Assembly: GCA_003139975.1 (NCBI GenBank)
Contig: PLHN01000117.1
Location: 1,409 to 17,543, forward strand
Reading direction: 5' to 3'
Length of the DNA stretch: 16,135 bases
From: Acidobacteriaceae bacterium
GTDB lineage: Bacteria > Acidobacteriota > Terriglobia > Terriglobales > Acidobacteriaceae
Shown here: piece after piece, positions 1-16,135 of the stretch
Numbering within the stretch: the stretch's first letter is position 1
Layout of the letters: every line of letters begins with the position of its first letter
Program-made: the position numbers and the translations under genes
The notes under the pieces: generated by a model
Databases searched by the model: none
Told to the model about the DNA's origin: nothing
Seen by the model: only the letters and a program-made list of their open reading frames with translations

Positions 1-3000
1 TGATCGCTAACCAGGCAGGCAACTCCAACTACGCCGCTGCGACTCAGGTTACTCAAAGCACGAACGCGACTCTGGCCACCTCAAGTGTAAGCGTAGGTTC
101 CAGTCAGAATCCTGCATTCTTGGGCCAGTCAGTGACCTTCACAGCGACAATCAACGGTCAGTTCGGGCAAGTCAAAGGGAACAACGGCTCGTCCCGCAAG
201 TCAAAAGCGAAACCGGAGGTTGTAACCGGTTCGGTAACCTGGAGCTCCAACACGGGCTGCGGCTCAACGACGGTCACGTCGGGAGTCGCGACCTGCACGA
301 CGTCGACTCTCCCCATGGGCACCGACACTATCACGGGCACCTACTCAGGTGACAGCAATCACAGCGGCGGCACAGGTACACTGACCGGCGGCGAAGTAAT
401 CAACCAGTACGGCACGAGCACGGCGGTCGCCTCTACACTGGATCCTGCAACGTACGGCCAATCCGTAAGCTTCACGGCGAATGTAACGTCGTCGGGCGGC
501 ACGCCCACGGGAACCGTGCAGTTCAACGTCGACGGCCTCGCCTTCGGTTCGCCGGTAACCTTGTCTTCGGGTTCGGCAGCGTCGGGCAGCACCTCGACTC
601 TGGCGGTTGGAGCGCACACGGTTACGGCGGTCTACTCGGGCGCGTCGAACTACGCTGCCAGCACGGGCATGCTGGCCGGCGGAGAAGTCGTCAACTCGGC
701 AACCGCAGCCACGACCGTTGCTTCCAGCCAGAATCCTACGAACTATGGCCAGTCGGTGACGTTCACAGCGACGATCAACGGCGAGTACGGCCTGGTTAAA
801 GGACGCAAGGGAGCATCGAAGAAACCGCTCGATGTAACAGGCAATGTGACCTGGAGCGCGAACACGGGCTGCGGCACAACCGCGGTCACGTCAGGCAATC
901 CAGGAACGGCAAGCTGTACGACATCCACTCTCCCAGTAGGCTCCGACACAATCACGGCGACCTACTCGGGTGACGGCAACCACAGCGGCAGCACGGGCAC
1001 GCTGACCGGCGGCCAGGTAGTGAATCAGTGGAGCACGAGCACGGCGGTCGGCTCCAGCCTGAATCCTTCGGTCTATGGCCAGGCTGTCAGCTTCACCGCG
1101 AACGTGACGTCCTCGGGAGGCACCCCGACCGGGACCGTGCAGTTCAACGTCGACGGCATCGCTTTTGGTACGCCGGTGACGCTGAGTTCCGGTTCTGCCA
1201 CGTCGACCAGCACTTCGACGCTGGCCGTAGGAACGCACACGGTCACGGCCGCTTACTCGGGCGCGACCAACTACACCGCCAGCACAGGCACGCTGAGCGG
1301 CGGAGAAGTTGTCAACTCGGCGACCGCTGCCATGGTCGTTGCTTCCAGCCTGAACCCGTCGGCGTTTAATCAGTCGGTGACGTTCACGGCGACGATCAAC
1401 GGCGAGTACGGCCTGGTTAAGGGACGCAAGGGCCACGCGAAACCGGAGGATGTAACCGGGTCGGTGAACTGGAGCTCAAACACAGGCTGCAGCACAACCA
1501 CAGTCGCGTCGGGCAATCCGGGAACCGCAACCTGTACCACATCCTCCTTGCCGGTAGGCACTAGCACGATCACGGCAACTTACTCCGGAGATAGCAACCA
1601 CAGCGGAAGCACTGCCACGCTGAGCGGCGGCCAGGTAGTCGACCAGGCGCCCGCGACGACGGCTGTTACTTCCAGCCTGAATCCTGCGACCTACGGCCAA
1701 TCCGTCAGCTTCACGGCGAACGTGACGTCGGCGGCAGGCACCCCAACCGGAACCGTGCAGTTCAACGTCGACGGCAACCTGTTCGATACCGAGACGCTCG
1801 CATCGGGTTCGGCAACGTCGACCAGCACTTCGACGCTGGCGGTAGGAACGCACACGGTCACCGCAGTCTACTCGGGCGACACGAACTTCCCGCCCAGCAC
1901 CGGCACACTGAGCGGCGGAGAAGTTGTCAAATCGGCAGCGGCCGCCACGGTCGTTACTTCCAGCTTGAATCCATCGACGTTCAACCAGTCGGTAACGTTC
2001 ACCGCGACCATCAACGGCCAGTACGGACTCGTCAAGGGCCGCAAGGGAGCGAAGCCCGAAGCCGTAACTGGAACGGTGGCCTGGAGCTCGAATACGGGCT
2101 GCGGCACAACCACAGTCACCTCGGGCAATCCGGGACTCGCCACCTGCACCACTTCAACTCTTGTATCGGGAACCGACACAATCACTGCCGCCTACTCGGG
2201 TGACAGCAACCACAGCGGCAGCACCGGCACGTTGAGCCAGACAGTGAGCCAAGCCACCACCACAACCGCCGTTGCTTCCAGCCTGAATCCTTCGACCACA
2301 GGTCAGGCTGTCAGCTTCACCGCAAACGTGACCTCGACAGCAGGTACGCCGGCAGGAACCGTGCAGTTCTCGATCGACGGCACTGCCTTCGGTTCGCCGG
2401 TAACGTTAGCTTCGGGTTCCGCCACGTCGGGTACCACCTCTGCCTTGTCGGCAGGAACGCACACCATCACCGCGGTCTACTCGGGTGCGGCCAACTACGC
2501 AGCCAGCACGGGCACGTTGAGCGGCGGCCAGGTAGTCAACCCAGTGCAGAGCCAGACCATCACGTTCAACCCCAACCCGCCATCGAGCGCGGCCTATAAC
2601 ACCAGCTTTACGGTGGCGGCCACGGCTAGCTCCGGATTGCCGGTTGCCTTCACCAGTACGGGCTCCTGCACCAACGTGGGCGCCACGTACACCGTGAATA
2701 GCGGATCGGGAACGTGCTTTGTGATCGCCAACCAGGCGGGCAACGCGCAGTATTCACCGGCGCCGCAGGTAACGGCGCAGGTGACGGCGGTTCCGGCCAG
2801 CCAGACGATCGCGGTCACGGTGGCTGCTCCTCCAACCGCAACCTACAAGAGCAGCTTCACTGTAGCGGCTAGCGCCAGCTCTGGGTTAGCGGTTACGTAC
2901 TCGAGCGCCGGGTCATGCACCAATTCCGGCGCGACCTACACGATCACTAAATCGAGCGGAACTTGCACAGGAACGATCACGCAGGCGGGCAACAGCAATT

Positions 3001-3548
3001 ACGCCGCTGCGACGCCGGTCGTCCAACACACAACGGTCGCGGCCGCGATTGCTCCGACGGTGAGCCTAACCGCTCCCGCCACTGCGGTCTACGGTTCCAC
3101 CTACACCGTAGTAGCAACCACGAACGCCAGCACTACCCCAACCATCACGGCGGCGCCCGTCACAGTCTGCACCATCAGCGGGACCACCGTCACCATGGTG
3201 AACGGTACGGGGACGTGTACGGTAACCGCGAAATGGGCTGCGGACGATGTCTATAAGGCGGCCACTGCCACGGCAAAAACAATCGCGCAAAAGGCGGCTA
3301 CGGTCCTCACCTGGCCGACGCCCGCGCCGATTACTTACGGCACGCCGTTGAGCAGTACGCAGCTGGATGCATCTGCCAGCTACAACAGTTCGCCGCTACC
3401 AGGTACGTACGTATACTCACCGGCAGCCGGCACAGTGCCGAAGGTCGGCACGTGTGACACTCTGAACGTGACCTTTACTCCCACGCAGAGCACGGACTTC
3501 ACCAGGGTGACTGCGTCGGTTTGCCTGCAGGTGAATGCAGCAAAGTGA
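1..3548 (+). CDS. Ig-like repeat surface/secreted protein, 5' end outside window
   Basis: The frame is open from the first full codon (position 3) to TGA at 3546-3548, so the start lies upstream and about 1180 residues are visible. The protein is almost wholly tandem Ig-like beta-sandwich repeats of the bacterial Big_3 kind, with signatures such as NPSxYGQSVSFTANVTS, GTPTGTVQF and HTVTAVYSG. Two alternating types, A and B, form four A-B pairs up to about 2540. Four further domains of a different type follow, including YGS/YGT modules typical of acidobacterial repeat proteins. The A repeats and the C-terminal domains carry paired cysteines (NTGC...TC, GSC...GTC), which suggests disulfides and an extracytoplasmic location. 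No C-terminal anchor (LPXTG, PEP-CTERM, autotransporter barrel) is visible. Likely role: cell-surface stalk or adhesin-like architecture. The true function probably depends on the missing N-terminus. An internal TTG at 120 is not the start. Confidence 0.9.
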   Translation, partial: IANQAGNSNYAAATQVTQSTNATLATSSVSVGSSQNPAFLGQSVTFTATINGQFGQVKGNNGSSRKSKAKPEVVTGSVTWSSNTGCGSTTVTSGVATCTTSTLPMGTDTITGTYSGDSNHSGGTGTLTGGEVINQYGTSTAVASTLDPATYGQSVSFTANVTSSGGTPTGTVQFNVDGLAFGSPVTLSSGSAASGSTSTLAVGAHTVTAVYSGASNYAASTGMLAGGEVVNSATAATTVASSQNPTNYGQSVTFTATINGEYGLVKGRKGASKKPLDVTGNVTWSANTGCGTTAVTSGNPGTASCTTSTLPVGSDTITATYSGDGNHSGSTGTLTGGQVVNQWSTSTAVGSSLNPSVYGQAVSFTANVTSSGGTPTGTVQFNVDGIAFGTPVTLSSGSATSTSTSTLAVGTHTVTAAYSGATNYTASTGTLSGGEVVNSATAAMVVASSLNPSAFNQSVTFTATINGEYGLVKGRKGHAKPEDVTGSVNWSSNTGCSTTTVASGNPGTATCTTSSLPVGTSTITATYSGDSNHSGSTATLSGGQVVDQAPATTAVTSSLNPATYGQSVSFTANVTSAAGTPTGTVQFNVDGNLFDTETLASGSATSTSTSTLAVGTHTVTAVYSGDTNFPPSTGTLSGGEVVKSAAAATVVTSSLNPSTFNQSVTFTATINGQYGLVKGRKGAKPEAVTGTVAWSSNTGCGTTTVTSGNPGLATCTTSTLVSGTDTITAAYSGDSNHSGSTGTLSQTVSQATTTTAVASSLNPSTTGQAVSFTANVTSTAGTPAGTVQFSIDGTAFGSPVTLASGSATSGTTSALSAGTHTITAVYSGAANYAASTGTLSGGQVVNPVQSQTITFNPNPPSSAAYNTSFTVAATASSGLPVAFTSTGSCTNVGATYTVNSGSGTCFVIANQAGNAQYSPAPQVTAQVTAVPASQTIAVTVAAPPTATYKSSFTVAASASSGLAVTYSSAGSCTNSGATYTITKSSGTCTGTITQAGNSNYAAATPVVQHTTVAAAIAPTVSLTAPATAVYGSTYTVVATTNASTTPTITAAPVTVCTISGTTVTMVNGTGTCTVTAKWAADDVYKAATATAKTIAQKAATVLTWPTPAPITYGTPLSSTQLDASASYNSSPLPGTYVYSPAAGTVPKVGTCDTLNVTFTPTQSTDFTRVTASVCLQVNAAK
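84..2543 (+). repeat. Four tandem ~606-621 bp A-B Ig-domain units
   Basis: Unit boundaries fall at about 84, 702, 1323, 1938 and 2543. Each unit holds an A domain with a lysine/arginine-rich loop, then a B domain with GTPTGTVQFNVDG or a close variant. DNA similarity between units is high: phrases such as GTGCAGTTCAACGTCGACGG recur in units 1-3. This suggests recent duplication and possible change in unit number by recombination. Confidence 0.85.
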
Positions 3549-3603
3549 AGTAGTGTGATTGTCGGCGAAATTCCGCCACCAGCGCACTCGCTAACGTTAA
3601 CCA

Positions 3604-3639
3604 ATGCGGCCCAGGGCAACTTGGGCCGCATATTTTTTT
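3604..3639 (+). terminator. Strong Rho-independent terminator of the Ig-repeat gene
   Basis: A perfect 10-bp stem (ATGCGGCCCA at 3604-3613 with TGGGCCGCAT at 3622-3631) encloses an 8-nt loop. One A and seven T follow, at 3633-3639. It lies 55 bases past the stop codon and is correctly oriented for the upstream gene. Confidence 0.92.
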
Positions 3640-3736
3640 CATCGATTGTCGCCTCCCGCAATTTTGTGGCACAAGGAGTAGCGCTGCGACAGGCCGTTCG
3701 TGACGCGATTGGAATGAACGATGTTGAGGTTTGAAG

Positions 3737-3830
3737 GGTCGCGGTTTCAGCCGCGTCGAAGCCGTCTGATTGAAGATTGAGGGCTTTTAGCCCCTGAGGT
3801 AAAACCCCACCAGGAAAGGCAGTCGCGACC
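3737..3830. repeat. REP-like element with 7-bp terminal inverted repeats
   Basis: GGTCGCG (3737-3743) and its reverse complement CGCGACC (3824-3830) bound the element. Inside are two small hairpins: CGCGG/CCGCG with a 6-nt loop (3740-3755), and GGGCTTTTAGCCC (3781-3793) followed by CTGAGG. The right end touches the lutC stop codon. It may also act as a weak transcription end for the lut operon, but no T-run follows on the minus strand. Confidence 0.5.
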
Positions 3831-4519
3831 TAAGCTCCACTCTGCAGGATAACCACCAACCGGCGCGGTCCGTGCGCGCCCTGCACCAGAATTTTCTCGA
3901 TGTCGGCAGTCCGGCTCGACCCGCTGATGACGCACGCGAACGAATTGCGATCAAACGTTCCCTGCTGTGAAATTCCGCTCATGGCGGTCGCGAGATCGGG
4001 GACCAGTTGAGCTGTCGTCGCGTAAACGATGTGACACGGAGCGATGACGGAAGCGCCCCGCCCTCCGCACGCGGCGCTTACCAGAATCGAGCCGGTTTGC
4101 GCGATCAGACTCTCGGCCAGCGTCACCGTGGCCTGGGAAGCCTCGCCCGGCGCTCCTTGGTTGGACCAGCGGATCGCCCGCGCGGGCGCGAACGGTTCGA
4201 GAAGGCGGCGCAAGGCGGGATCATCCTGGACGAAAATTTCCCCTGCGGGCAGCGATTCCAGAACCTCCGCAAGATGTTGCGCGCTGGCGGCAAAATCCGA
4301 GGTCAGCACACATTCCATCAGATTGGCAACGCATTCCTGCTGGAAGCGATCGAGCGGATTTGTGATGGGCTCGAAGATTACGCGCTCGGAATTGGCCTGT
4401 GTCCGGGGCTGCTCAGGAACCACAACCCGCAATCCAGTGCGAATGCGCTCTAGAATCCGCTCGCGGCTTGGGTTGCCGGTTTGCATTTGCTTCGTTTGCG
4501 CGTTGTCAGTTTCCGGCAC
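3830..4519 (-). CDS. lutC: LutC-like LUD-domain protein (lactate utilization)
   Basis: LutC is the third subunit of the LutABC system, which oxidises L-lactate to pyruvate in the cytoplasm. The 229-residue protein has a LUD (DUF162) domain. Family hallmarks are visible: LAESLIAQTGSILVSA, then GRGASVIAPCHIVYATTAQL, and near the end ISGSSRTADIEKILVQGAHG, which resembles the usual SGPSRTADIE...GVHGP. No Fe-S cysteine motif is present, as expected for LutC. The GTG start at 4519 is chosen because GGAGG sits 7 bases before it, inside lutB. The first in-frame ATG (4486) has no such site. The gene overlaps the lutB end by 14 bases, implying translational coupling. The reading frame also extends far upstream into lutB, but that part is a shadow. 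Stop codon is TAG. Confidence 0.92.
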   Translation of the reverse strand: MPETDNAQTKQMQTGNPSRERILERIRTGLRVVVPEQPRTQANSERVIFEPITNPLDRFQQECVANLMECVLTSDFAASAQHLAEVLESLPAGEIFVQDDPALRRLLEPFAPARAIRWSNQGAPGEASQATVTLAESLIAQTGSILVSAACGGRGASVIAPCHIVYATTAQLVPDLATAMSGISQQGTFDRNSFACVISGSSRTADIEKILVQGAHGPRRLVVILQSGA

Positions 4520-5924
4520 GGTCTTTCCTCCAGCGCGCACGGAATGATTGCAATGGCAACGGCACGGGCGCGCGATACCGGTTCCAGACGCGCATCGGAT
4601 CGACGACCGTTCCCGCCAATCCCAAGGCATAAAGCATGCGCAGCGCTTTGCGCATGGACCATCCTCCGAATGCATAAACCCGCGGACGAACCATCGCTGC
4701 CCGCCACATGCGGAAGATCATCCGCTCGCTCGATTTTGTGACTCCCGCCTCGGCAGCATTGCGTCGATTCTCCAGCAGATGGTGATGCAGGTCGATTTTC
4801 ACCGGGCACACACTGCTGCAAGCGCCGCACAGCGACGACGCATAGGACAGGTGTTTGAACTCCTTGATCCCATTCAGATGCGGCGTGAGTACGCTGCCGA
4901 TTGGTCCGGGATAAGTCGTGCCGTAAGTATGTCCGCCAACATGGCGAAACACGGGACAGATATTCAGGCAGGCGCCACACCGAATGCAATGCAGCACTTC
5001 GCGTTGTTCGGCATCGGCCAGCAACCGGCTGCGTCCGTTATCCACCAGCACCACGTGGAATTCCTTGGCTCCATCCACTTCCCCCGGCTGGCGCGGGCCC
5101 GCGATCATCGTGCTGTAAGTCGTAATGCCTTGCCCTGTGCCGGAAGTCGCAAGCACAGGCCATAAAACAGCCAGATCATCAAGCCGAGGAATCACTTTTT
5201 CGATGCCGGTAACCACCACGTGAATGGGGGGCACGCTCGTACACAAGCGGCCGTTTCCCTCGTTGGTGGAAATGGCCACGACCCCTGCATCGGCTACCAG
5301 AAAATTCGCGCCCGAGATCCCCATCTCGGCGGCAAAAAAAGCCTCGCGCAGTTTGCGGCGTGCCACGGCCATCAGGTCCGCGGGGTCGTCGCTGGCGATT
5401 GCAGGATCCAATTTCTCGCGAAACAATGTGGCAATCTGTCCGCGGTTCAGGTGCATCGCAGGCGTCACGATGTGGTAAGGACCTTCGTTGCGCAGTTGCA
5501 CAATGAACTCGCCCAAGTCGGTTTCCCAGACCTTGATGCCCTCCTTCTCCAGCGCCGGACTGAGGTGAATTTCCTCCGTCACCATGGATTTCGACTTCAC
5601 GACAGTGCGTACGCCGAACCGCAGGGCCAGGTCCTTCACATACGTGCACGCCTCCTCCGCATTAGCCGCCCAGTAAACATGCCCGCCCCGCGCCACAACC
5701 TTTTCTTCGAACTGAACAAGGTAGCGATCCAGGTGGTTGATGGCTTCCCTTTTAATCTCCTGACATTTCTCGCGGGCGGCTTCCCAGTCTTTAATTCGCG
5801 CCCGGCCCTTGAGGTGGGCCGCGTCATAACTGTCCATGCCACGCCGGATAATCTCGCGATGCACTAGGTCCGCCGACTTGACCGCAGCGTCCTCAAGAAA
5901 ACGTTGTGCCGCAGTCTGGGTCAT
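4506..5924 (-). CDS. lutB: LutB-like Fe-S protein with LUD domain
   Basis: LutB is the Fe-S/LUD subunit of the LutABC lactate oxidation complex. The 472-residue length is close to the family norm. An N-terminal LUD domain (about 65-300) contains VVKSKSMVTEEIHL and, near 218-240, STNEGNGRLCTSVPPIHVVV. Next come Fe-S ligands in CIRCGACLNICP (Cys313, 316, 319, 323) and CGACSSVCPVKI (Cys366, 369, 373), with the family segment GPIGSVLTP between them. The ATG at 5922-5924 overlaps the lutA TGA as ATGA, with GGAGGAG five bases upstream. The open frame continues 43 codons into lutA, but those codons look unlike the family. The C-terminus is a basic, partly hydrophobic tail. Cytoplasmic. Confidence 0.95.
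   Translation of the reverse strand: MTQTAAQRFLEDAAVKSADLVHREIIRRGMDSYDAAHLKGRARIKDWEAAREKCQEIKREAINHLDRYLVQFEEKVVARGGHVYWAANAEEACTYVKDLALRFGVRTVVKSKSMVTEEIHLSPALEKEGIKVWETDLGEFIVQLRNEGPYHIVTPAMHLNRGQIATLFREKLDPAIASDDPADLMAVARRKLREAFFAAEMGISGANFLVADAGVVAISTNEGNGRLCTSVPPIHVVVTGIEKVIPRLDDLAVLWPVLATSGTGQGITTYSTMIAGPRQPGEVDGAKEFHVVLVDNGRSRLLADAEQREVLHCIRCGACLNICPVFRHVGGHTYGTTYPGPIGSVLTPHLNGIKEFKHLSYASSLCGACSSVCPVKIDLHHHLLENRRNAAEAGVTKSSERMIFRMWRAAMVRPRVYAFGGWSMRKALRMLYALGLAGTVVDPMRVWNRYRAPVPLPLQSFRARWRKDRAGN
4527..4531 (-). promoter_or_regulatory. Ribosome binding site deciding the lutC GTG start
   Basis: GGAGG on the minus strand lies 7 bases before GTG at 4519. It sits inside the 3' end of lutB and favours the GTG over the downstream ATG at 4486. 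Confidence 0.75.
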
Positions 5925-6688
5925 GGCTTCTCCTCCGCCAGACCCTGGGGCGAACTGCCGGCCCCACGCTGCTGTGCGAGGATGCTCGCCAGATGAATGG
6001 TGCGGGCTGCAGCATTGCGTTTGCCCAAAATGCCTTGCAGGTGCATAAGACAACTGGGATCGATGGCGGTGACAAACTCAGCCCCGATCGCGTCCACGCT
6101 GTCAGCCTTCGAATTTCCCATTGCCCCGGAGATATCGGCGAACTTGGCCGCAAAGGTTCCGCCAAAACCGCAGCATTCTTCCGAGCGAACCATGGGAATC
6201 AGCTTCAGGCCCTCGACCTCGCGCAACAACTGCATCGGCTCGCTGCGCAGGTTCAGCTCGCGCAGCCCGTGGCAGGAAGCGTGATAGGTAACCGTGTGCG
6301 GAAAGCTTGCGCCCACCTGCGTGACCTCCGCGACCTTGACCAGAAACTCCGAAAACTCAAACGTGCGGCCGGCGAGCGAGATGGCGTCCTCGCGCAACGA
6401 GCTGTGGGCCAGCAACTCCGGGTAGAAAAGACGAATCACACTCACGCACGAACCGGAAGGGGATACGACAACCTCGGCGTTCTTGAACACGCGCACAAAA
6501 TGCTCGGCGCACGGGCGCGCTTCGCCCCAGTATCCCGTGTTGAGGGCAGGCTGGCCGCAACAGGTTTGATCTTCGGGGAAGTCAACTTCGCACCCAACCC
6601 GGCGCAGCACCTTGACGGTATCAACGGCGACCTCAGGCAGCAGTTGGTCCACGAAGCAAGGAACGAACAGAGACACTTTGCGGGACAC
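5921..6688 (-). CDS. lutA: LutA-like CCG-domain oxidoreductase subunit
   Basis: LutA (YkgE type) is the cysteine-rich-domain subunit of the LutABC L-lactate oxidation system. The 255 residues show two CCG domains of the kind also found in GlcF and heterodisulfide reductase HdrB. The first has Cys11 (LFVPCFVD) and TCCGQP (Cys43-44). The second has HASCHG (Cys139), EECCGFGG (Cys172-173) and DPSC (Cys213). The GTG at 6686-6688 is chosen because AGAGG precedes it by 7 bases and because LFVPC then falls at the usual distance from the N-terminus. The open frame extends 42 codons further, into the lctP 3' end, with no family likeness. It lies 35 bases downstream of lctP and overlaps lutB by 4 bases, so the genes are probably one transcript. 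Confidence 0.94.
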   Translation of the reverse strand: MSRKVSLFVPCFVDQLLPEVAVDTVKVLRRVGCEVDFPEDQTCCGQPALNTGYWGEARPCAEHFVRVFKNAEVVVSPSGSCVSVIRLFYPELLAHSSLREDAISLAGRTFEFSEFLVKVAEVTQVGASFPHTVTYHASCHGLRELNLRSEPMQLLREVEGLKLIPMVRSEECCGFGGTFAAKFADISGAMGNSKADSVDAIGAEFVTAIDPSCLMHLQGILGKRNAAARTIHLASILAQQRGAGSSPQGLAEEKP

Positions 6689-6723
6689 GATGACACCTCT
6701 TGTCTTTTCTACGTCGCCACTTT

Positions 6724-8562
6724 CTACCGCAACACCAAGTGAGTAAACGGAAACACATAGGCCTGGAGCGTCACAAAAATTCCCACCAAAGCCGCCAGCG
6801 CCAAACTGTGCCAAAAAACGTAGCGCAGGATGTCACCCTCATGTCCGTACCACTGCGTCGCCGTACTGGCCACGACAATGCTCTGCGCATCGATCATCTT
6901 GCCCATGACACCGCCGCACGAATTGGCCGCCGCCATCAGGCTGGGCGCGACTCCGATCTGCTGCGCCGTAATTTTCTGCAGGCTGCCAAACAACACGTTC
7001 GACGACGTGTCCGACCCGGTCAGCGCCACGCCCAGCCAGCCTAGCAAAGTTCCGAAGAACGGATAGAGCGTGCCGGTGCGGGCAAACGCCAGACCCATGG
7101 TGGCGTCCACGCCCGAGTAACGAGTCAGGACGCCGATCGCCAGCATGGCCGCGATGGTCAGTAGCGAGAAGCGCACCTTCACAATGGTGCGCCCATAGAT
7201 CTTGAAAATGTTCCCGACGCTTACACCCATCACCAGCCCCGAGATCAGTGCCGCGAACAAAATTCCGCTTCCCGTCGCGCTCAGCCAGTTCAGCGCAAAC
7301 ACCGCCGGTTCCTTGGCCGGCTTTGGAACCACGGGCGGCACGCGCTGCACCAGATTGTTCAGGCCCGTCACCGGAAACGCCGGATTCGTAATCTTGCTTG
7401 GCACTGTTTGCCATGTCGACATCGACCTGAACACTTTCTCGGGAGTGTTCATCAGGTTCTTCCCGGTCTGCGTGCCCCAAACGAAAACGGCGACGCTGAG
7501 GATGACCCACGGAATCCACGCGCGCACAACTTCCGAACGGCTGTACCCGTGAACGGCGCGCGCGCCCTTCGTCTCTTCGCCTTCAAACGTCCAGATCTTT
7601 TTCGGATGCCAAACGAAGAGAAAGCCGATCAGGCAAATCATCGAAACCACAGCGGCGATGATGTTCACCAGCCACGGACCGTGCAGGTTCGAAACCAGCA
7701 GTTGGGGGATCGCGAACGAGACGCCCGCCACCAGGATGGCAGGCCAAATTTCCATCATTCCCGAGAACCCGGCAAACGCCCAAATCAACCAGAACGGAAC
7801 CAGAATGCAGAAAGGCGTCAGAATGCGACCCGCCATCGCCCCCAGCATGATTTCACTCATGCCAGTCACTTTGCCCAATGCGATGAGCGGAGTGCCCAAA
7901 GCGCCAAACGCCACCGGCGCCGTATTCGCGATCAACGACAAGCCCGAAGCTTGCAACGGCTTGAAACCCAGACCAATCAGCAAGGCGGCGGTCACCGCCA
8001 CGGGCGTTCCGAATCCAGCCGCGCCCTCGAAAAACGCGCCGAAACAAAACGCGATCAGCAACAATTGCAGCCGCCGATCCTGAGTGATTCCCGTCATGCT
8101 ATGTTGCAGTACCTTGAAGCGTCCTGACTCGACCGTGAGCTGATACATAAAGATGACGTTCAAAATGATCCAGCCAATGGGAAACAGCCCGTATCCCGCG
8201 CCATACACCGCCGTCGTAGCGGCCAGGCGCGCCGGCATGTGGAAGATAAAAATTGCCGCCGCCAACGCTGTGCCCAGTCCGAGGAGCGCCGCATAATGAG
8301 CTTTGACGTGGAACAAAGCCAGCGCACCCAGCAGTACGACGACCGGCAATGCCGCCACCAACGTGGAAAGCCACCAGTGGCCGGTGGGATCATAGTTCTG
8401 CGACCAGGGCGATGTGAGCGCGGGAATCTTGAGAATAGCGACCGCGGCAACAACCGATACCAGGATCACGACTGCCCACGTGATTGGGCTAACAGAGGGT
8501 GGGGCGGAGGATTTCGCTGGAGGAGTCCCTTCAGCAGGCGGAGTTTGCGTTCTGACGGCCAT
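6724..8562 (-). CDS. lctP: L-lactate permease, LctP/LldP family
   Basis: This is an inner-membrane lactate transporter, probably driven by the proton gradient as in the family. The 612 residues carry many hydrophobic helices. Family segments visible include FFEGAAGFGTPVAVTAALLI, GSDTSSNVLFGSLQ and ANSCGGVMGKMIDAQS. The N-terminus has a Pro/Ala-rich cytoplasmic extension of about 25 residues before the first helix. A polar segment of about 110 residues in the second half makes the protein somewhat longer than the usual ~550. The start is the ATG at 8560-8562, with AGGGAGAG just upstream. Upstream in-frame ATGs lack such a site. As the first gene before lutABC, it gives the operon both uptake and oxidation. 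No regulator gene (GntR-type LutR or LldR) lies nearby. Confidence 0.95.
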   Translation of the reverse strand: MAVRTQTPPAEGTPPAKSSAPPSVSPITWAVVILVSVVAAVAILKIPALTSPWSQNYDPTGHWWLSTLVAALPVVVLLGALALFHVKAHYAALLGLGTALAAAIFIFHMPARLAATTAVYGAGYGLFPIGWIILNVIFMYQLTVESGRFKVLQHSMTGITQDRRLQLLLIAFCFGAFFEGAAGFGTPVAVTAALLIGLGFKPLQASGLSLIANTAPVAFGALGTPLIALGKVTGMSEIMLGAMAGRILTPFCILVPFWLIWAFAGFSGMMEIWPAILVAGVSFAIPQLLVSNLHGPWLVNIIAAVVSMICLIGFLFVWHPKKIWTFEGEETKGARAVHGYSRSEVVRAWIPWVILSVAVFVWGTQTGKNLMNTPEKVFRSMSTWQTVPSKITNPAFPVTGLNNLVQRVPPVVPKPAKEPAVFALNWLSATGSGILFAALISGLVMGVSVGNIFKIYGRTIVKVRFSLLTIAAMLAIGVLTRYSGVDATMGLAFARTGTLYPFFGTLLGWLGVALTGSDTSSNVLFGSLQKITAQQIGVAPSLMAAANSCGGVMGKMIDAQSIVVASTATQWYGHEGDILRYVFWHSLALAALVGIFVTLQAYVFPFTHLVLR

Positions 8563-8626
8563 GCGGCTCTCCCTCATTGGAGGAGAATATCTTCTCACAC
8601 TGGCAGGACTCGTGAATGGAATGAAA

Positions 8627-8647
8627 GCCGCCATTGGCAAAGGCGGC
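8627..8647 (-). terminator. Candidate hairpin between selC and lctP
   Basis: GCCGCC and GGCGGC form a 6-bp GC-only stem with a 9-nt loop. On the minus strand it is followed by TTTCATTCC. The T-tract is short, so it may be a leaky terminator for selC or a leader structure of the lctP transcript. It starts 109 bases after the tRNA 3' end. Confidence 0.3.
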
Positions 8648-8755
8648 GAGGGGTCCAAAGAACTGGATGTAATCTTTCACTTCGCGATTGCAGCCGCCGG
8701 CAGAACTTCTGATTCTCGCCCGCGCGTCCGGATTGCACGGCTAAATCTGAATAAT

Positions 8756-8852
8756 TGGCGGAAGCGAGTGCGAGTCGAACGCACCGGCGACAGGATCCCT
8801 GCCGCCCGCCGGTTTTGAAGACCGGGAACCCCACCGGGGACCCTTCGCTTCC
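8756..8852 (-). tRNA. selC: tRNA-Sec (UCA anticodon)
   Basis: The 97-nt gene includes encoded CCA. The 8-bp acceptor stem GGAAGCGA/TCGCTTCC, discriminator G and CCA match the bacterial tRNA-Sec type. The anticodon arm is CCGGT-CTTCAAA-ACCGG, with TCA at 8818-8816. A long extra arm pairs GGCGGCAG with CTGTCGCC (one G-U pair), and the T arm holds GTTCGACTC. It decodes UGA as selenocysteine together with SelA, SelB and SelD. None of those genes lies in this window, and no in-window gene visibly uses selenocysteine. The D-arm CCCCGGTGGGG resembles E. coli selC. The gene lies 193 bases upstream of lctP on the same strand. Confidence 0.95.
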
Positions 8853-10092: not shown

Positions 10093-10989
10093 ATGGCCAC
10101 CTCTCGAAAACTCTCTTCCGTCCAAGTCGATGTTTTTACCGACCGCGCCCTCACCGGCAATGCCCTGGCCGTCGTCCTCGACGGACGCGGCCTCACGACC
10201 GGACAGATGCAAGCGATCGCGCGCGAAACCAACCTCTCGGAAACAACTTTCGTCCTCCCCGGAGATCCCGCCGCGGAAAAGTCGCGCGGCATCCGCGTCC
10301 GCATCTTCACCGTGCAGGAAGAACTGCCCTTCGCCGGTCACCCTACACTCGGCACGGCCTTCGTTCTGCGCGGCCAATCCGGCTCCAGCGAAGTCCTTCT
10401 TGAACTCAACGTCGGTACCGTTCCCGTGCGTTTCGAGGACAGACCCGGCCTTCCAACTTTTGGCGAAATGACGCAGAAGAATCCCGAATTCGGAGCCATC
10501 CACGACCGCGAAGCCGTGGCGCGTGTCGCCGGCCTCACCGCCGCTGACTTCGACCAGACCGCTCCCATCCAGACCGTCTCCACCGGAGTTCCATTCACCA
10601 TCGCCCCGTTGCGCTCGCTGAACACACTCCAGTCTCTTCATCTCGATCAGAATCGTGCCGCTGAATACCTGGACCGCAGCGCTGGAAGGTTCTTTTACTT
10701 CGTTTCCCGCGAGACCGTCGACCCCAAAGCCCGGCTGCATGCGCGCATGCTTTTCTACAACGGAGAAGATCCCGCCACCGGATCCGCCGCCGGTTGCTGT
10801 TCGGCCTGGATGGCCGCGCACGCAATTGCCGCCAGCGATGAGCAGGTCCTGATCGAGCAAGGCCTCGAAATGCAACGTCCCAGCCGCATTTTCGTCCGCG
10901 CCTCCAAACGTGATAACCAAGTCGCCAATGTGCGTGTCGGTGGAAATTGTGTGGAAGTCTTTCGCGCCGAACTCACGCTCAATCTCTGA
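10093..10989 (+). CDS. PhzF family isomerase-like protein
   Basis: This belongs to the PhzF/YddE superfamily of cofactor-free isomerases with a diaminopimelate-epimerase-like fold. The 298 residues are typical. Visible signatures are VDVFTD and GNALAVV near the N-terminus, NLSETTFV with the likely catalytic Glu50, LPFAGHPTLG (80-87) and YNGEDPATGSAAG, with Asp226 in the second half. The substrate is unknown: there are no phenazine genes around, so a phenazine role is not implied. The start is ATG 10093, immediately before KLSSVQVDVFTD. An in-frame TTG at 10015 adds 26 unlikely residues. No Shine-Dalgarno sequence is visible. It is divergent from the peroxiredoxin gene, with 217 bases between the starts. 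Confidence 0.93.
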   Translation: MATSRKLSSVQVDVFTDRALTGNALAVVLDGRGLTTGQMQAIARETNLSETTFVLPGDPAAEKSRGIRVRIFTVQEELPFAGHPTLGTAFVLRGQSGSSEVLLELNVGTVPVRFEDRPGLPTFGEMTQKNPEFGAIHDREAVARVAGLTAADFDQTAPIQTVSTGVPFTIAPLRSLNTLQSLHLDQNRAAEYLDRSAGRFFYFVSRETVDPKARLHARMLFYNGEDPATGSAAGCCSAWMAAHAIAASDEQVLIEQGLEMQRPSRIFVRASKRDNQVANVRVGGNCVEVFRAELTLNL

Positions 10990-11157
10990 CACGCGAGACG
11001 CTGCTCGCATCGCGGTTCGGCGCGTGATGCACTACCCTGCCATCCACCTCGGTGCCATTGGCGAGCGCGCCACTTTTCCGGCATCGTGATTCTGTTTACT
11101 ATTCGTCTCGCTCCGATTCTTGAAAAGAAGTGGCAACGACAGCCCCCGAGTCAACCA

Positions 11158-12969: not shown

Positions 12970-13044
<75 letters not shown>

Positions 13045-13092: not shown

Positions 13093-13171
<79 letters not shown>

Positions 13172-13177
13172 CCTCCC

Positions 13178-14311
13178 TCACGGCCTCGCCCCCGACTCCT
13201 CCAGCAACTCCTTCAAATACTGCTGCCAAATCGCGGCCCACGTGTGCGTCCCATGCCCATGCGTGTTCTCCGACGCCGGAATCAACACAAACTTCCCCTT
13301 CTTCACCTGCTGAATCTCCCGCTCCGCAATGCCCAGCTCTGGAGGATTAATAAAATCATCCGCCGAATTCACAAACATCACCGGAGCCTGAATCGTCCCC
13401 AGCTTCGCCGACGGATCATAATCCCGCGACGCGCCGACCGCATAAAGAAGGTCGTTCGCGTCCAAGCCATCCATCATCCGCTTCCGAGTCACCTCAAGAT
13501 ATTCGTCCGCCGCCTCGCGCGTAGCCAGCTCTTTCTGCATCGCCAGCGGAGCGCTCCCTGCAATCATTAGGAAATCCACGCCAATTTCGATCCCCGACCG
13601 CGGCTCGGCCGCATACTCGCCGTTCTTCCACTCCGGGTCCGAACGAATTCCATCCATCACCATCTTCCGCCAGATGCGGTTCCTCCCCGCAATCTGCACC
13701 GGCAAACACGCCAAAGGCATCAGCGCATCCATTTCCGCCGGATAGTTCTCTCCCCAAATCCACGAATGCATGCACCCCATCGATGTCCCCACCACCAGCC
13801 GCAAATGATCGACGCCCAGCCCCTTCGTCACCAGTTCATGCTGCAGCGCCACCATGTCGGCATAGTCATATTGCGGAAAATGAGCATGCATCCCATCGCT
13901 GGGCTTTGACGACTGCCCGTGGCCAACATTGTCCGGAATAATAAGGTAGTACTTCGATGCGTCCAGCAATTGGCCTGGGCCAAACAGGACGCCTGCGAAG
14001 ATGGGACGCAGGAAAGTCTTCCCCGATCCGCTTGTTCCATGCAGGATCAGTACCGCGTTGGTCGTATGCCCGCGCGCATCCTTCATGGCAGAGCCCAAAG
14101 TGGTGTAATGCATCCGCACCTCAGGCAGGGTTTCTCCTGACTGGAAGCGGAAGTCGCGAACCAAGTAATCGCCTTCATGCGGAGTTGGTTGGTCAGCCTT
14201 AAGTTGTTGAGGCGCTGAGCCTTGCGCATGAGAGAGCGTGATCGCCAGTGCAACAAGCAGCATCATCCTCAATGCAGCGAAAAGCCGCAGGCGCGACACG
14301 ATAGTTGTCAT
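13178..14311 (-). CDS. Secreted alpha/beta hydrolase, homoserine acetyltransferase-like fold
   Basis: This is an alpha/beta-hydrolase of 377 residues related to the MetX/homoserine O-acetyltransferase-like group. A signal peptide is visible (basic start, hydrophobic core about 11-26, possible cleavage after SHA at 29), so it probably acts in the periplasm or outside the cell. It therefore is unlikely to be a biosynthetic MetX. The oxyanion region LHGTSGSGKTF is followed by nucleophile Ser177 in GTSMGCMHSW, acid Asp318 or Asp319 in NSADDFINPP, and a histidine cluster NTHGHGTHTW (351-356) that supplies the catalytic His. Substrate unknown: an esterase or acyltransferase is possible. GAGG lies close before the ATG at 14311. 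It is 30 bases downstream of the three-gene cassette on the same strand, but belongs to an ordinary family. It converges on the tRNA-Cys gene. Confidence 0.9.
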   Translation of the reverse strand: MTTIVSRLRLFAALRMMLLVALAITLSHAQGSAPQQLKADQPTPHEGDYLVRDFRFQSGETLPEVRMHYTTLGSAMKDARGHTTNAVLILHGTSGSGKTFLRPIFAGVLFGPGQLLDASKYYLIIPDNVGHGQSSKPSDGMHAHFPQYDYADMVALQHELVTKGLGVDHLRLVVGTSMGCMHSWIWGENYPAEMDALMPLACLPVQIAGRNRIWRKMVMDGIRSDPEWKNGEYAAEPRSGIEIGVDFLMIAGSAPLAMQKELATREAADEYLEVTRKRMMDGLDANDLLYAVGASRDYDPSAKLGTIQAPVMFVNSADDFINPPELGIAEREIQQVKKGKFVLIPASENTHGHGTHTWAAIWQQYLKELLEESGARP

Positions 14312-14341: not shown

Positions 14342-14818
14342 TTAGGACTCGGTCTTCGTCTTCAAACGAATTGGGCCCGGCGGAATGGCTAACTTTACGT
14401 CTGGAGATTCACTTAGCTCCAGACATATCTCAATCCATCGCTCTTTGCGCTCGTTCATATCAGTGGGAGCCGGCCATCCCACCACAGAAGTGTGTCGTTC
14501 GAACGGTTGATCGTCCCGAATAGCTCGAAGTTTTTGCTGGAGGAACTGCTCCACCGGGACATCAGCGCGAGCATAGATGGTATCTCGGCCTGGTTCGCTG
14601 CGCATCGTATTCTTCTCAGCGATTTCCCAGATTGTCGAGTCAAGTAGGTCCGTCACGTGGATCCCTGAAAGCTTCATGCTCGGAGGAGGCATGAAGGCGC
14701 TCCGCTTCGGACGCATTCGCTGGCTGCTGAACTGAGTTTTCGAATACAGGATTCGCGTGACTACCTCGAAAGGTGCCAACTCACGCGGAACCTGGGACAC
14801 AGTCTCAACGCGCCACAT
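14342..14818 (-). CDS. Hypothetical protein with HTSVVGWP motif, third gene of cassette
   Basis: No named family is recognised. The core contains PFEVVTRILYSKTQFS, then RPKRSAFMPPPSMKLSG, an IWEIAE segment and HTSVVGWP (His109). I recall small hypothetical proteins with the same order (TRFI.S, AF.P....LS, IW, HANI.GWP), but could not check this. No signal peptide or membrane helix is seen, so it is probably cytoplasmic. The start is uncertain. ATG 14818 (158 residues) gives a 14-base overlap with the gene upstream and begins just before the conserved core. ATG 14884 (180 residues) would overlap by 80 bases and encode a poorly conserved-looking leader. Neither has a good ribosome binding site. 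It ends with TAA, 30 bases before the hydrolase start. Confidence 0.75.
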   Translation of the reverse strand: MWRVETVSQVPRELAPFEVVTRILYSKTQFSSQRMRPKRSAFMPPPSMKLSGIHVTDLLDSTIWEIAEKNTMRSEPGRDTIYARADVPVEQFLQQKLRAIRDDQPFERHTSVVGWPAPTDMNERKERWIEICLELSESPDVKLAIPPGPIRLKTKTES

Positions 14819-15329
14819 TCGTCGCAGCAGTTTCGCGAGCCAACTGGGACAGCGCATTCGCAATTGATCCAGGAATTCCATCATCAAACCATTCTGTACC
14901 CCTTAAGGTGCTATATCCACGCATACAAGCAAAGACGCATCGGCCTTTTTCATTGATGCTTACGCTTAGAGCCTTACGCGGACCGAACGACCAGTCCAAT
15001 GCCACATCTCCGTCAGGGTCAGCGCTAATCTCAGGATGTGGCGCGGTGGTAGGCAAGGATTCTAGGAAACGTCTCGCCAGAAGGTAAGCCTCCGGATTCA
15101 TCGGCTTCGCCCCGTAACCGTCCCATCCTTCAACAGAGGCCACACCTCGCGTCGCCTCCAATTCGTCCAGTGCGCGTTCGACTCCGCGACGAACGGCATA
15201 GCTGGCGAGAAGGTGCATCCGTATCTGCTCTATAATCGCTGACAACCGCTCAGCAGATTCACTTCGAGCAGTTGATCGGTTTGGCGTAATCAGTCCGGTG
15301 GGCCGTCCCAATGCTAGACCTGTTGTCAT
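14805..15329 (-). CDS. Hypothetical protein with GWDGYGA motif, second gene of cassette
   Basis: No named function. The 174 residues have a charged helical N-terminal part (about 20-65), then VEGWDGYGAKPMNPEAYLLA (67-86), a FLESLPTTAPHPEISADPDG stretch and VALDWSFGPRKALSVSINEKG. This resembles hypothetical proteins with a GWDGYGA / PEI..DPDG.V.LEW pattern that I recall but cannot verify here. The beta-rich second half could be a small binding domain. There is no signal peptide or membrane helix. ATG 15329 overlaps the TGA of the upstream TIGR04255 gene as ATGA, with GGAG 8 bases upstream, so translation is probably coupled. It overlaps the next gene by at least 14 bases. Confidence 0.82.
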   Translation of the reverse strand: MTTGLALGRPTGLITPNRSTARSESAERLSAIIEQIRMHLLASYAVRRGVERALDELEATRGVASVEGWDGYGAKPMNPEAYLLARRFLESLPTTAPHPEISADPDGDVALDWSFGPRKALSVSINEKGRCVFACMRGYSTLRGTEWFDDGIPGSIANALSQLARETAATNVAR

Positions 15330-16069
15330 TCGTACATCTCCACAGTCCGCTCAGTGACGCTCGCAAAAAAGATCTCATTCTTTAGCGCCCTAAGCTGCTC
15401 GAAAATTTCTGACAACGACGGATCATCTGCAGGTCTCGCTGGTTCTCGGAACGCGTCGATGTCCAAAAGAACTTGCATGGCAGAGGGATCCAAAGGTGCG
15501 TCCAACGCTTGAACTAGTATCGCTGAAAGCCTCCGCTCGGGAGCATCCACGACTACGCGAGTCAGAAACTCCCGTATCGTTTGGGGTATCGGCTCAGGCA
15601 GTACCGGCGGCGCTGACAGGTATTGGCCCAACTCCGCTGGCGCAGGTAACCGCAAGCGGTTGATATACCGGACTGCCAGTCTAGACACCTCTAGTGGCCG
15701 TGCCACCTGCACATAGATGCTCCAAAGGCGGCGGGCCTCTCCAAATACTTCTTCCCATGTCGTATAGGGTTCGAGTTTGCTGAAAGTGAATCCGTCAACT
15801 CTAAACTGGGCGACCGCTTTCTGCGTCTGGGAGTAATATAGCCACCCAACAGGGGCCTCCACCTGGACCGGCGCAACCGGTTTGCCACGCTCCACGCCGA
15901 ACCGCGCTTGGATAGAGTGCATTAGTGAAGGAGGGTTATATTGCTGACCAACTCTTGAACTGAGATCAGCAAAGTGGTCCGACGCGATGCCCTCCCCGGC
16001 CAATACACGAAAGTCAATGATCGCCTCGACGATAGGAGCACGGGCTAGGTGTGGGCGAGGTCTAGCCAT
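15326..16069 (-). CDS. TIGR04255 family protein, first gene of cassette
   Basis: This is a member of the sporadically distributed TIGR04255 family, whose function is unknown. The 247 residues show the family order: an opening ARAPIVEAIIDFRVL (9-23), FTFSKLEPYTTWEEVFGEA (94-112) with RLWSIY, the hallmark RLAVRYINRLRLP (130-142), YLSAPPVLPEPIPQTIREFL, VLLDIDAFRE and the C-terminal LRALKNEIFFASVTE (227-240). There is no signal peptide or membrane helix. The ATG at 16067-16069 is used. A GTG three codons upstream (16078) is equally possible, since neither has a clear ribosome binding site. It is first in a run of three overlapping genes. Sampled 60-base lines here count about 45-55% GC against about 62% in the ABC ATPase gene, consistent with transfer. 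Confidence 0.85.
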   Translation of the reverse strand: MARPRPHLARAPIVEAIIDFRVLAGEGIASDHFADLSSRVGQQYNPPSLMHSIQARFGVERGKPVAPVQVEAPVGWLYYSQTQKAVAQFRVDGFTFSKLEPYTTWEEVFGEARRLWSIYVQVARPLEVSRLAVRYINRLRLPAPAELGQYLSAPPVLPEPIPQTIREFLTRVVVDAPERRLSAILVQALDAPLDPSAMQVLLDIDAFREPARPADDPSLSEIFEQLRALKNEIFFASVTERTVEMYE

Positions 16070-16101
16070 TCGAGGCACGTCGCTTTCTGTGCGGAGAAGG
16101 G

Positions 16102-16129
16102 TTTAAAGGAAATCTCGGCGGCTCGACAA
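16102..16129 (-). promoter_or_regulatory. Candidate promoter of the three-gene cassette
   Basis: On the minus strand TTGTCG (16129-16124), a 16-base spacer and TTTAAA (16107-16102) would start a transcript near 16095, about 26 bases before the ATG. The match to consensus is moderate, and the window ends just beyond. Confidence 0.3.
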
Positions 16130-16135
16130 AACGCT

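Follow-up and report, generated by a model that had tools for sequence, protein, structure and literature searches.

A stretch of 16,135 nucleotides from an Acidobacteriaceae bacterium (the window; positions 1409–17543 of contig PLHN01000117.1, or L002, of 19,593 bases, in the 3.9-Mb, 545-contig draft genome GCA_003139975.1) carries three overlapping genes, A, B and C, the first of which belongs to the TIGR04255 family. Members of this family turn up sporadically in many bacteria, and no function has been assigned to them. A fourth small gene, R, overlaps the start of A and begins beyond the window, so that the trio is not the full unit supposed by an initial annotation made from the letters of the window. 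By a slender balance of probability, the overlapping genes R, A, B and C are read here as one transcription unit encoding a tripartite toxin–antitoxin-like system, in which C would be the toxin, B the antitoxin, A a shared stabiliser or sensor and R a repressor. The likeliest reading of the related loci, which the initial annotation missed, is that A is the constant part, B and C being one form of a pair that varies.

The three open reading frames (ORFs) lie on the minus strand at 15326–16078 (A), 14805–15329 (B) and 14342–14887 (C). Their coordinates confirm the arrangement first described, with an overlap of four bases (ATGA) between A and B, and of 80 bases between B and C if C starts at ATG 14884, or 14 bases if it starts at ATG 14818. 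The longer form of C (14342–14884, 180 aa, within an ORF open from a TTG) is favoured because its N-terminal MMxFL-like stretch recurs in the relatives P0067, P0069, P0088 and that of L003. A most likely starts at ATG 16069 (15326–16069, 247 aa) and not at GTG 16078 as initially proposed, since column M4 is nearly invariant and a 247-aa record (P0100) is identical. The TIGR04255 profile matches A with 121.9 bits over residues 11–246 (curated cut-off 30), which upholds the family assignment made from the letters. B (174 aa), the proposed antitoxin, consists of a WDGYG-type domain behind a variable N-terminal stretch. The lower GC content noted initially is also found, at 0.541–0.566 in the four 1-kb segments covering the trio versus 0.574–0.632 in all others. 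The same genome contains a single A match and a single C match, and among named relatives, those closest to A and B come from Terriglobales bacteria, with 80–82% identity. None of the three proteins matches a Pfam family above cut-off, B and C have no NCBIfam family above cut-off and no sequence relatives in the PDB, and neither Pfam nor PADLOC finds a toxin domain in the window's own A, B or C.

TIGR04255 was used as the anchor for the comparison of loci, since a search begun from B would be biased. It was found in 39/396 genomes of the window's phylum (five weak matches, G268, G026, G184, G051 and G256, were not fetched), in 24/299, 21/194 and 15/201 genomes of the phyla of the Thiocapsa, Pseudanabaena and Dehalococcoidia genomes, respectively, and in 0/14 control genomes. 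From 124 A loci, 16 were dropped before counting: six in which A was reached only through B (L116–L120 and L122), and those with contig ends, fragments or interrupted genes (L082, L097, L107, L124, L125, L140, L173, L175, L192 and L193). Among the remaining 108 are the window itself, three loci from plasmids and four from genomes to which B had led first (L114, L115, L121 and L123). In 98 of these, A is overlapped or abutted by gene 2, the overlap being exactly 4 bases in 43; the start of gene 2 lies within 30 nt of A in 106, and that of gene 3 lies equally close to gene 2 in 103. The following gene was taken as the longest ORF starting −150 to +170 nt from the previous stop, a procedure that inflates overlap and misses genes lying far off. 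As a control, it was repeated behind 288 further long ORFs from those contigs. For these, a gene 2 was found in 276 cases, overlapping or touching in 98, with a 4-base overlap in 28 and a start within 30 nt in 159, while gene 3 lay within 30 nt in 140/250. As the control rates are far lower, the packing after A is well above background, which bears out the tight coupling initially noted. The loci display one feature of type II toxin–antitoxin systems, namely small, tightly coupled neighbours kept together across genomes.

Gene 3 is variable. At phmmer E 1e-3, its 108 ORFs fall into 23 clusters: an unnamed type with 33 members, the C-type with 30, a HEPN-like type with 11, clusters of 6, 4 and 3, four of 2, and 13 singles. 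Known toxin families occupy this position in a minority of the related loci, and not in the window. Above the Pfam cut-off, gene 3 encodes PIN in L083 and L166, PemK in L099 and L130, Zeta in the plasmid locus L042 and DUF7689 in L090, with PIN also found at gene 2 of L104; below the cut-off are PemK in L094, HicA in L095 and HEPN in L078. Further scans covered 104 gene-3 proteins, L101, L133, L178 and L186 being left out as doubtful ORFs (the real C of L101 is at 10670–11086). At E 0.01, these gave HEPN (4), PemK (3), PIN (2), Zeta (1), DUF7689 (1), alpha/beta hydrolase (1) and weaker secondary matches, most of the 104 having no match at all, to known toxin families or otherwise. The background was drawn from 60 genomes of one phylum, that of the window (230.8 Mb, with genes estimated at 0.95 per kb), which contain 95 PemK and 526 PIN matches; 0.045 PemK and 0.25 PIN would be expected in 104 random genes (p 0.001 for at least two PemK, p 0.026 for at least two PIN). 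PADLOC matched five of the 104 proteins to PDC-M32B and gave single matches to RTasMBL, LmuA, PDC-M48B, Avs1a and HEPN_IX, the protein not being named in the output. Because known toxin families replace gene 3 in some loci, a toxin–antitoxin-like system is favoured, and it is this part of the initial guess, a "defence or toxin–antitoxin-like" unit, that gains support. The possibility that A is itself the toxin was discarded, as the slot taken by PIN, PemK and Zeta is gene 3, apart from the PIN of L104. The commonest gene-3 family (33/108; for example L080:3262–4116) carries a QTCDI-like stretch, and the one representative scanned has no Pfam match; it is a candidate for an undescribed toxin family.

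The second and third genes are largely coupled. A C-type gene 3 follows 26/30 B-type gene-2 proteins and 4/78 others (Fisher p 9e-17), and two gene-2 clusters (9 and 2) are specific to the 11 HEPN-like gene-3 loci. Strict one-to-one pairing is not seen: a gene-2 cluster of 57, joined partly by weak links, spans C-type (29), unnamed-type (18) and cluster-3 (6) loci, and the unnamed gene-3 type is also paired with many other gene-2 clusters. On a quick tree of 104 A sequences, 38 of whose 101 inner branches are open, gene-3 type requires 33 changes compared with a mean of 62.0 after shuffling. Gene-3 type is therefore clustered on the A tree, yet it has been swapped often. Supported sister pairs with unlike third genes are L098 (HEPN-like) with L103 (C-type) at 99, and L151 (C-type) with L155 (unnamed type) at 97. 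The starred branches alone force fewer changes, 7 for the C-type, 9 for the unnamed type and 4 for the HEPN-like type. Packing, coupling and swapping are thus established by counts; the roles of toxin, antitoxin, stabiliser and repressor are what we infer. Gene-2 proteins also have a distinctive N-terminus, with a Ser+Thr fraction of 0.206 in the first 50 residues and 0.126 in the rest, an enrichment to which wrong start calls could contribute; the corresponding values are 0.122 and 0.107 for gene 3, and 0.100 and 0.117 for A.

Gene order was also examined from the side of B. A scan of GTDB contigs for the B family yielded 33 loci, with A in 21, C in 25 and all three families in 17. The order is A-B-C in 17/17 of the latter, in agreement with the fixed order that had been put forward as the strongest point for a system. 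Homologues occurring mostly apart had been named as the outcome that would argue against one; the conserved order, together with the packing after A above the control, goes the other way. Titles of the B loci include Acidobacteria, Gemmatimonadetes, Rokubacteria, Nitrospirae, Bacteroidetes, Dehalococcoidia, Akkermansia, Latescibacteria, Pseudanabaena, Lichenibacterium and others. In the window's phylum, C is present in 4/199 genomes. Where A is missing, B bears an HTH_17 DNA-binding domain above cut-off in L015, a point counted in favour of the toxin–antitoxin-like reading, and another gene lies upstream of B in L010, L022, L025, L026 and L027. In three of these last five loci, a conserved protein of about 100 aa takes the place of A before B (L022:7543–7848, L025:7411–7716 and L027:7447–7740), the L022 copy having no Pfam match. 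In L010, a 130-aa protein (1076–1465), also without a Pfam match, lies directly ahead of B and C and may be a stand-in for A.

R is a 77-aa ORF on the minus strand (17470–17703 of the contig), of which 16062–16135 lies in the window; it contains a 2-base N gap, at which the window stops. With ATG 16069 as the start of A, R and A overlap by 8 nt. Among the 83 loci scanned, homologues of R precede A in L003, L004, L005 and L102. The resemblance of R to a ribbon-helix-helix repressor was judged solely by eye, and the R homologues in L004 and L005, the two that were scanned, match no Pfam family. In 5/5 loci with R, an 18-bp near-palindrome, ACCCGATAATWANCGGGY, is found 4–15 nt upstream of the R start. 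It includes GATAAT as a −10 box, and the best −35 box at a spacing of 17–18 nt agrees with TTGACA at 5, 5, 3, 3 and 4 of 6 bases in the five loci. A candidate promoter had initially been placed ahead of the trio; the best promoter-like site of the region (10/12) is instead the near-palindrome before R, outside the window, 7 such sites being found where 2.1 are expected. The pattern has 10 matches in the 3.1 Mb of fetched DNA, both strands included, all of which are reckoned to be copies of the five sites (loci overlap, and the perfect palindrome of L005 is read twice). Since inverted repeats with arms of at least 8 nt occur in 30/963 80-nt windows of L002, the evidence for an operator is the sequence and place common to five loci and not the repeat itself. 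The site is a candidate operator over the −10 box, to which R may bind in a type II-style autoregulation.

The structure model of A (predicted local distance difference test, pLDDT, 95.6) resembles the folds of TBP, AdoMetDC and guanidino kinases/McsB, the three best Foldseek matches having template modelling (TM) scores of at most 0.27. Among viral predicted structures, one match was obtained at E 0.001 or better, to an unnamed protein. Identification of A with SecB was rejected, as SecB is absent from the fold lists, although these do not exclude an unlisted family. The model of C is tentatively likened to ADP-ribosyltransferase folds, a resemblance that departs from the initial view of a trio free of enzyme-like parts. 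Judging from this model, C is likely to be an enzyme that uses NAD and has an ADP-ribosyltransferase-like fold; R45, S74 and H132 are conserved residues in C. Comparison of C with six KptA sequences (hhalign) gave a probability of 0.2%; on this comparison, C has no profile similarity to KptA/Tpt1 RNA 2'-phosphotransferases or other ADP-ribosyltransferase-like proteins. Profile comparison of C with A was negative.

In the favoured reading, R would bind the 18-bp near-palindrome and repress the operon, as suggested by the conservation and place of the site. C would be the toxin, its proposed activity being drawn from structure, and B would be the antitoxin of C, as the two travel together while A serves other pairs too. 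A would be the constant partner of many such pairs, most likely as a stabiliser of the antitoxin, perhaps acting by way of the N-terminal stretch, rich in Ser and Thr, that gene-2 proteins carry. Should A be lost or captured, perhaps by a phage product, the antitoxin would fail and the toxin would act. By analogy, the nearest worked-out parallel is CmdTAC, in which, according to excerpts of PMC11618068, the chaperone holds the antitoxin until a phage capsid protein draws the chaperone off, the antitoxin is degraded and the ADP-ribosyltransferase is freed. CmdTAC and the TAC system of M. tuberculosis, in the excerpted sources, likewise comprise three adjacent genes, with a constant third partner and varied toxins. 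A further likeness would be that the CmdTAC toxin is an ADP-ribosyltransferase (PMC11618068, in excerpt), the kind of fold proposed for C. TAC chaperones are related to SecB, whereas the model of A is like TBP, AdoMetDC and guanidino kinases.

Panacea is reportedly a hyperpromiscuous antitoxin, in which one constant domain is combined with many unrelated toxin families. Antitoxin networks (PMC10440598, in excerpt) likewise join a single invariant protein or domain to numerous unrelated toxin families. In both, the constant part is the antitoxin domain, whereas the constant part of the A loci is a distinct third protein, and their antitoxin-like gene is variable as well. The string "TIGR" is absent from the main text of PMC10440598, a survey of HEPN proteins (PMC3710099) has no "three-gene" or "third gene" passage, and TIGR04255 by name, also in combination with "toxin-antitoxin", was not found in the full text of 5.39 million open papers, subscription papers and preprints being outside the search. 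A further likeness is to PDC-M32. B matches the C-terminal part of the PADLOC model PDC-M32A (E 1.8e-6, positions 232–329 of 375), as do 53/55 members of the B family for one model. The match does not extend over the whole 375 positions, A having no match; C (P0003) matches nothing in PADLOC at E 1 and is thus not a PDC-M32B. Unlike A-B-C, the two-gene PDC-M32 has no separate TIGR04255 gene in front. The idea that PDC-M32A is a fusion of A and B was abandoned, as the A proteins P0001, L034 and L035 give no match at E 1 and three matches in 190 genomes comprise the B part only.

Phage defence is an appreciable, though rather unlikely, alternative: A would sense a phage product or act as a scaffold and switch on gene 2 and gene 3 as an effector pair, which need not be a toxin and antitoxin in uninfected cells. 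The sporadic spread of TIGR04255 in the four phyla would fit, as would the likeness of B to part of PDC-M32A, the PDC-M32B and single defence-model matches among gene-3 proteins, and the presence of A-B-C on contig L197 of a viral collection. A second viral-collection contig, L202, carries A-B with a gene that is C-like by eye, beside another that is repressor-like by eye. PDC-M32 itself is, however, only a candidate, listed as a hypothetical defence system in a study of Sinorhizobium prophages, the one open paper found to mention it (PMC12429752, in excerpt), and A (P0001) has no match in 50,697 phage records, where neither of the two A proteins searched was matched. Relatives of A do occur on three plasmids; the B of L035 has no match among plasmids.

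It is still less probable that B and C form a two-gene toxin–antitoxin pair by themselves, with A an accessory enzyme or nucleic-acid-binding protein travelling along. This would account for the 12/33 B-anchored loci that lack A beside B, several of which have C, and for the B of L015, which, in a locus without A, bears a DNA-binding domain of its own (HTH_17, 38.4 bits over a cut-off of 27); the folds that A resembles, TBP and guanidino kinases/McsB, would suit such a part. The packing of A before many unrelated pairs is nevertheless hard to explain unless A has a role with each. The window's genes have no toxin domain and A shares folds with enzymes, as might be expected of an operon with an ordinary metabolic or housekeeping function, in which case the toxin families at gene 3 would be miscalled neighbours. 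Such an operon is very improbable and was rejected on account of the patchy spread and the swapped gene 3, with PIN, PemK and Zeta tightly packed behind the same gene 1.

The toxin–antitoxin-like reading can be extended to the whole family, in a tentative proposal to which rather less than even credence is given. TIGR04255 would then be the hub common to a new class of tripartite toxin–antitoxin systems, with a TBP-like fold in contrast to the SecB of TAC, serving many unrelated pairs across phyla; C would found a new toxin family of ADP-ribosyltransferase fold, and the 33-member gene-3 family would be a further undescribed toxin family. If TIGR04255 is indeed the fixed partner of swappable toxin–antitoxin pairs, the family would gain a function and lead to new toxin families, among them the C-type, the unnamed type that is commonest, and smaller ones. 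A second solution, unrelated to the first, would also be at hand for the task that SecB-like chaperones perform in TAC phage defence.

Downstream of the unit, an alpha/beta hydrolase-like gene (13178–14311, minus strand; homoserine acetyltransferase-like by eye) starts 30 nt after C and could share its transcript. It was not retained as a member, as the gene after C differs in L003, L004, L005, L086 and L102. In L004, two small genes on the other strand directly after C (3037–3686, minus strand) resemble a HigB/HigA-type pair by eye. Elsewhere in the window, there are genes for tRNA-Sec (anticodon tca, 8756–8852, minus strand), tRNA-Gly (12970–13044, plus strand) and tRNA-Cys (13093–13167, plus strand), the first of which suggests that the genome uses selenocysteine. 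A lactate-utilisation set (LutC-, LutB- and LutA-like) with a lactate permease, recognised by eye, occupies 3830–8658 on the minus strand. On the plus strand, positions 1–3548 hold a very long repetitive open frame (1181 aa within the window), which follows the end of a protease that is sedolisin-like by eye, with N gaps in L002.
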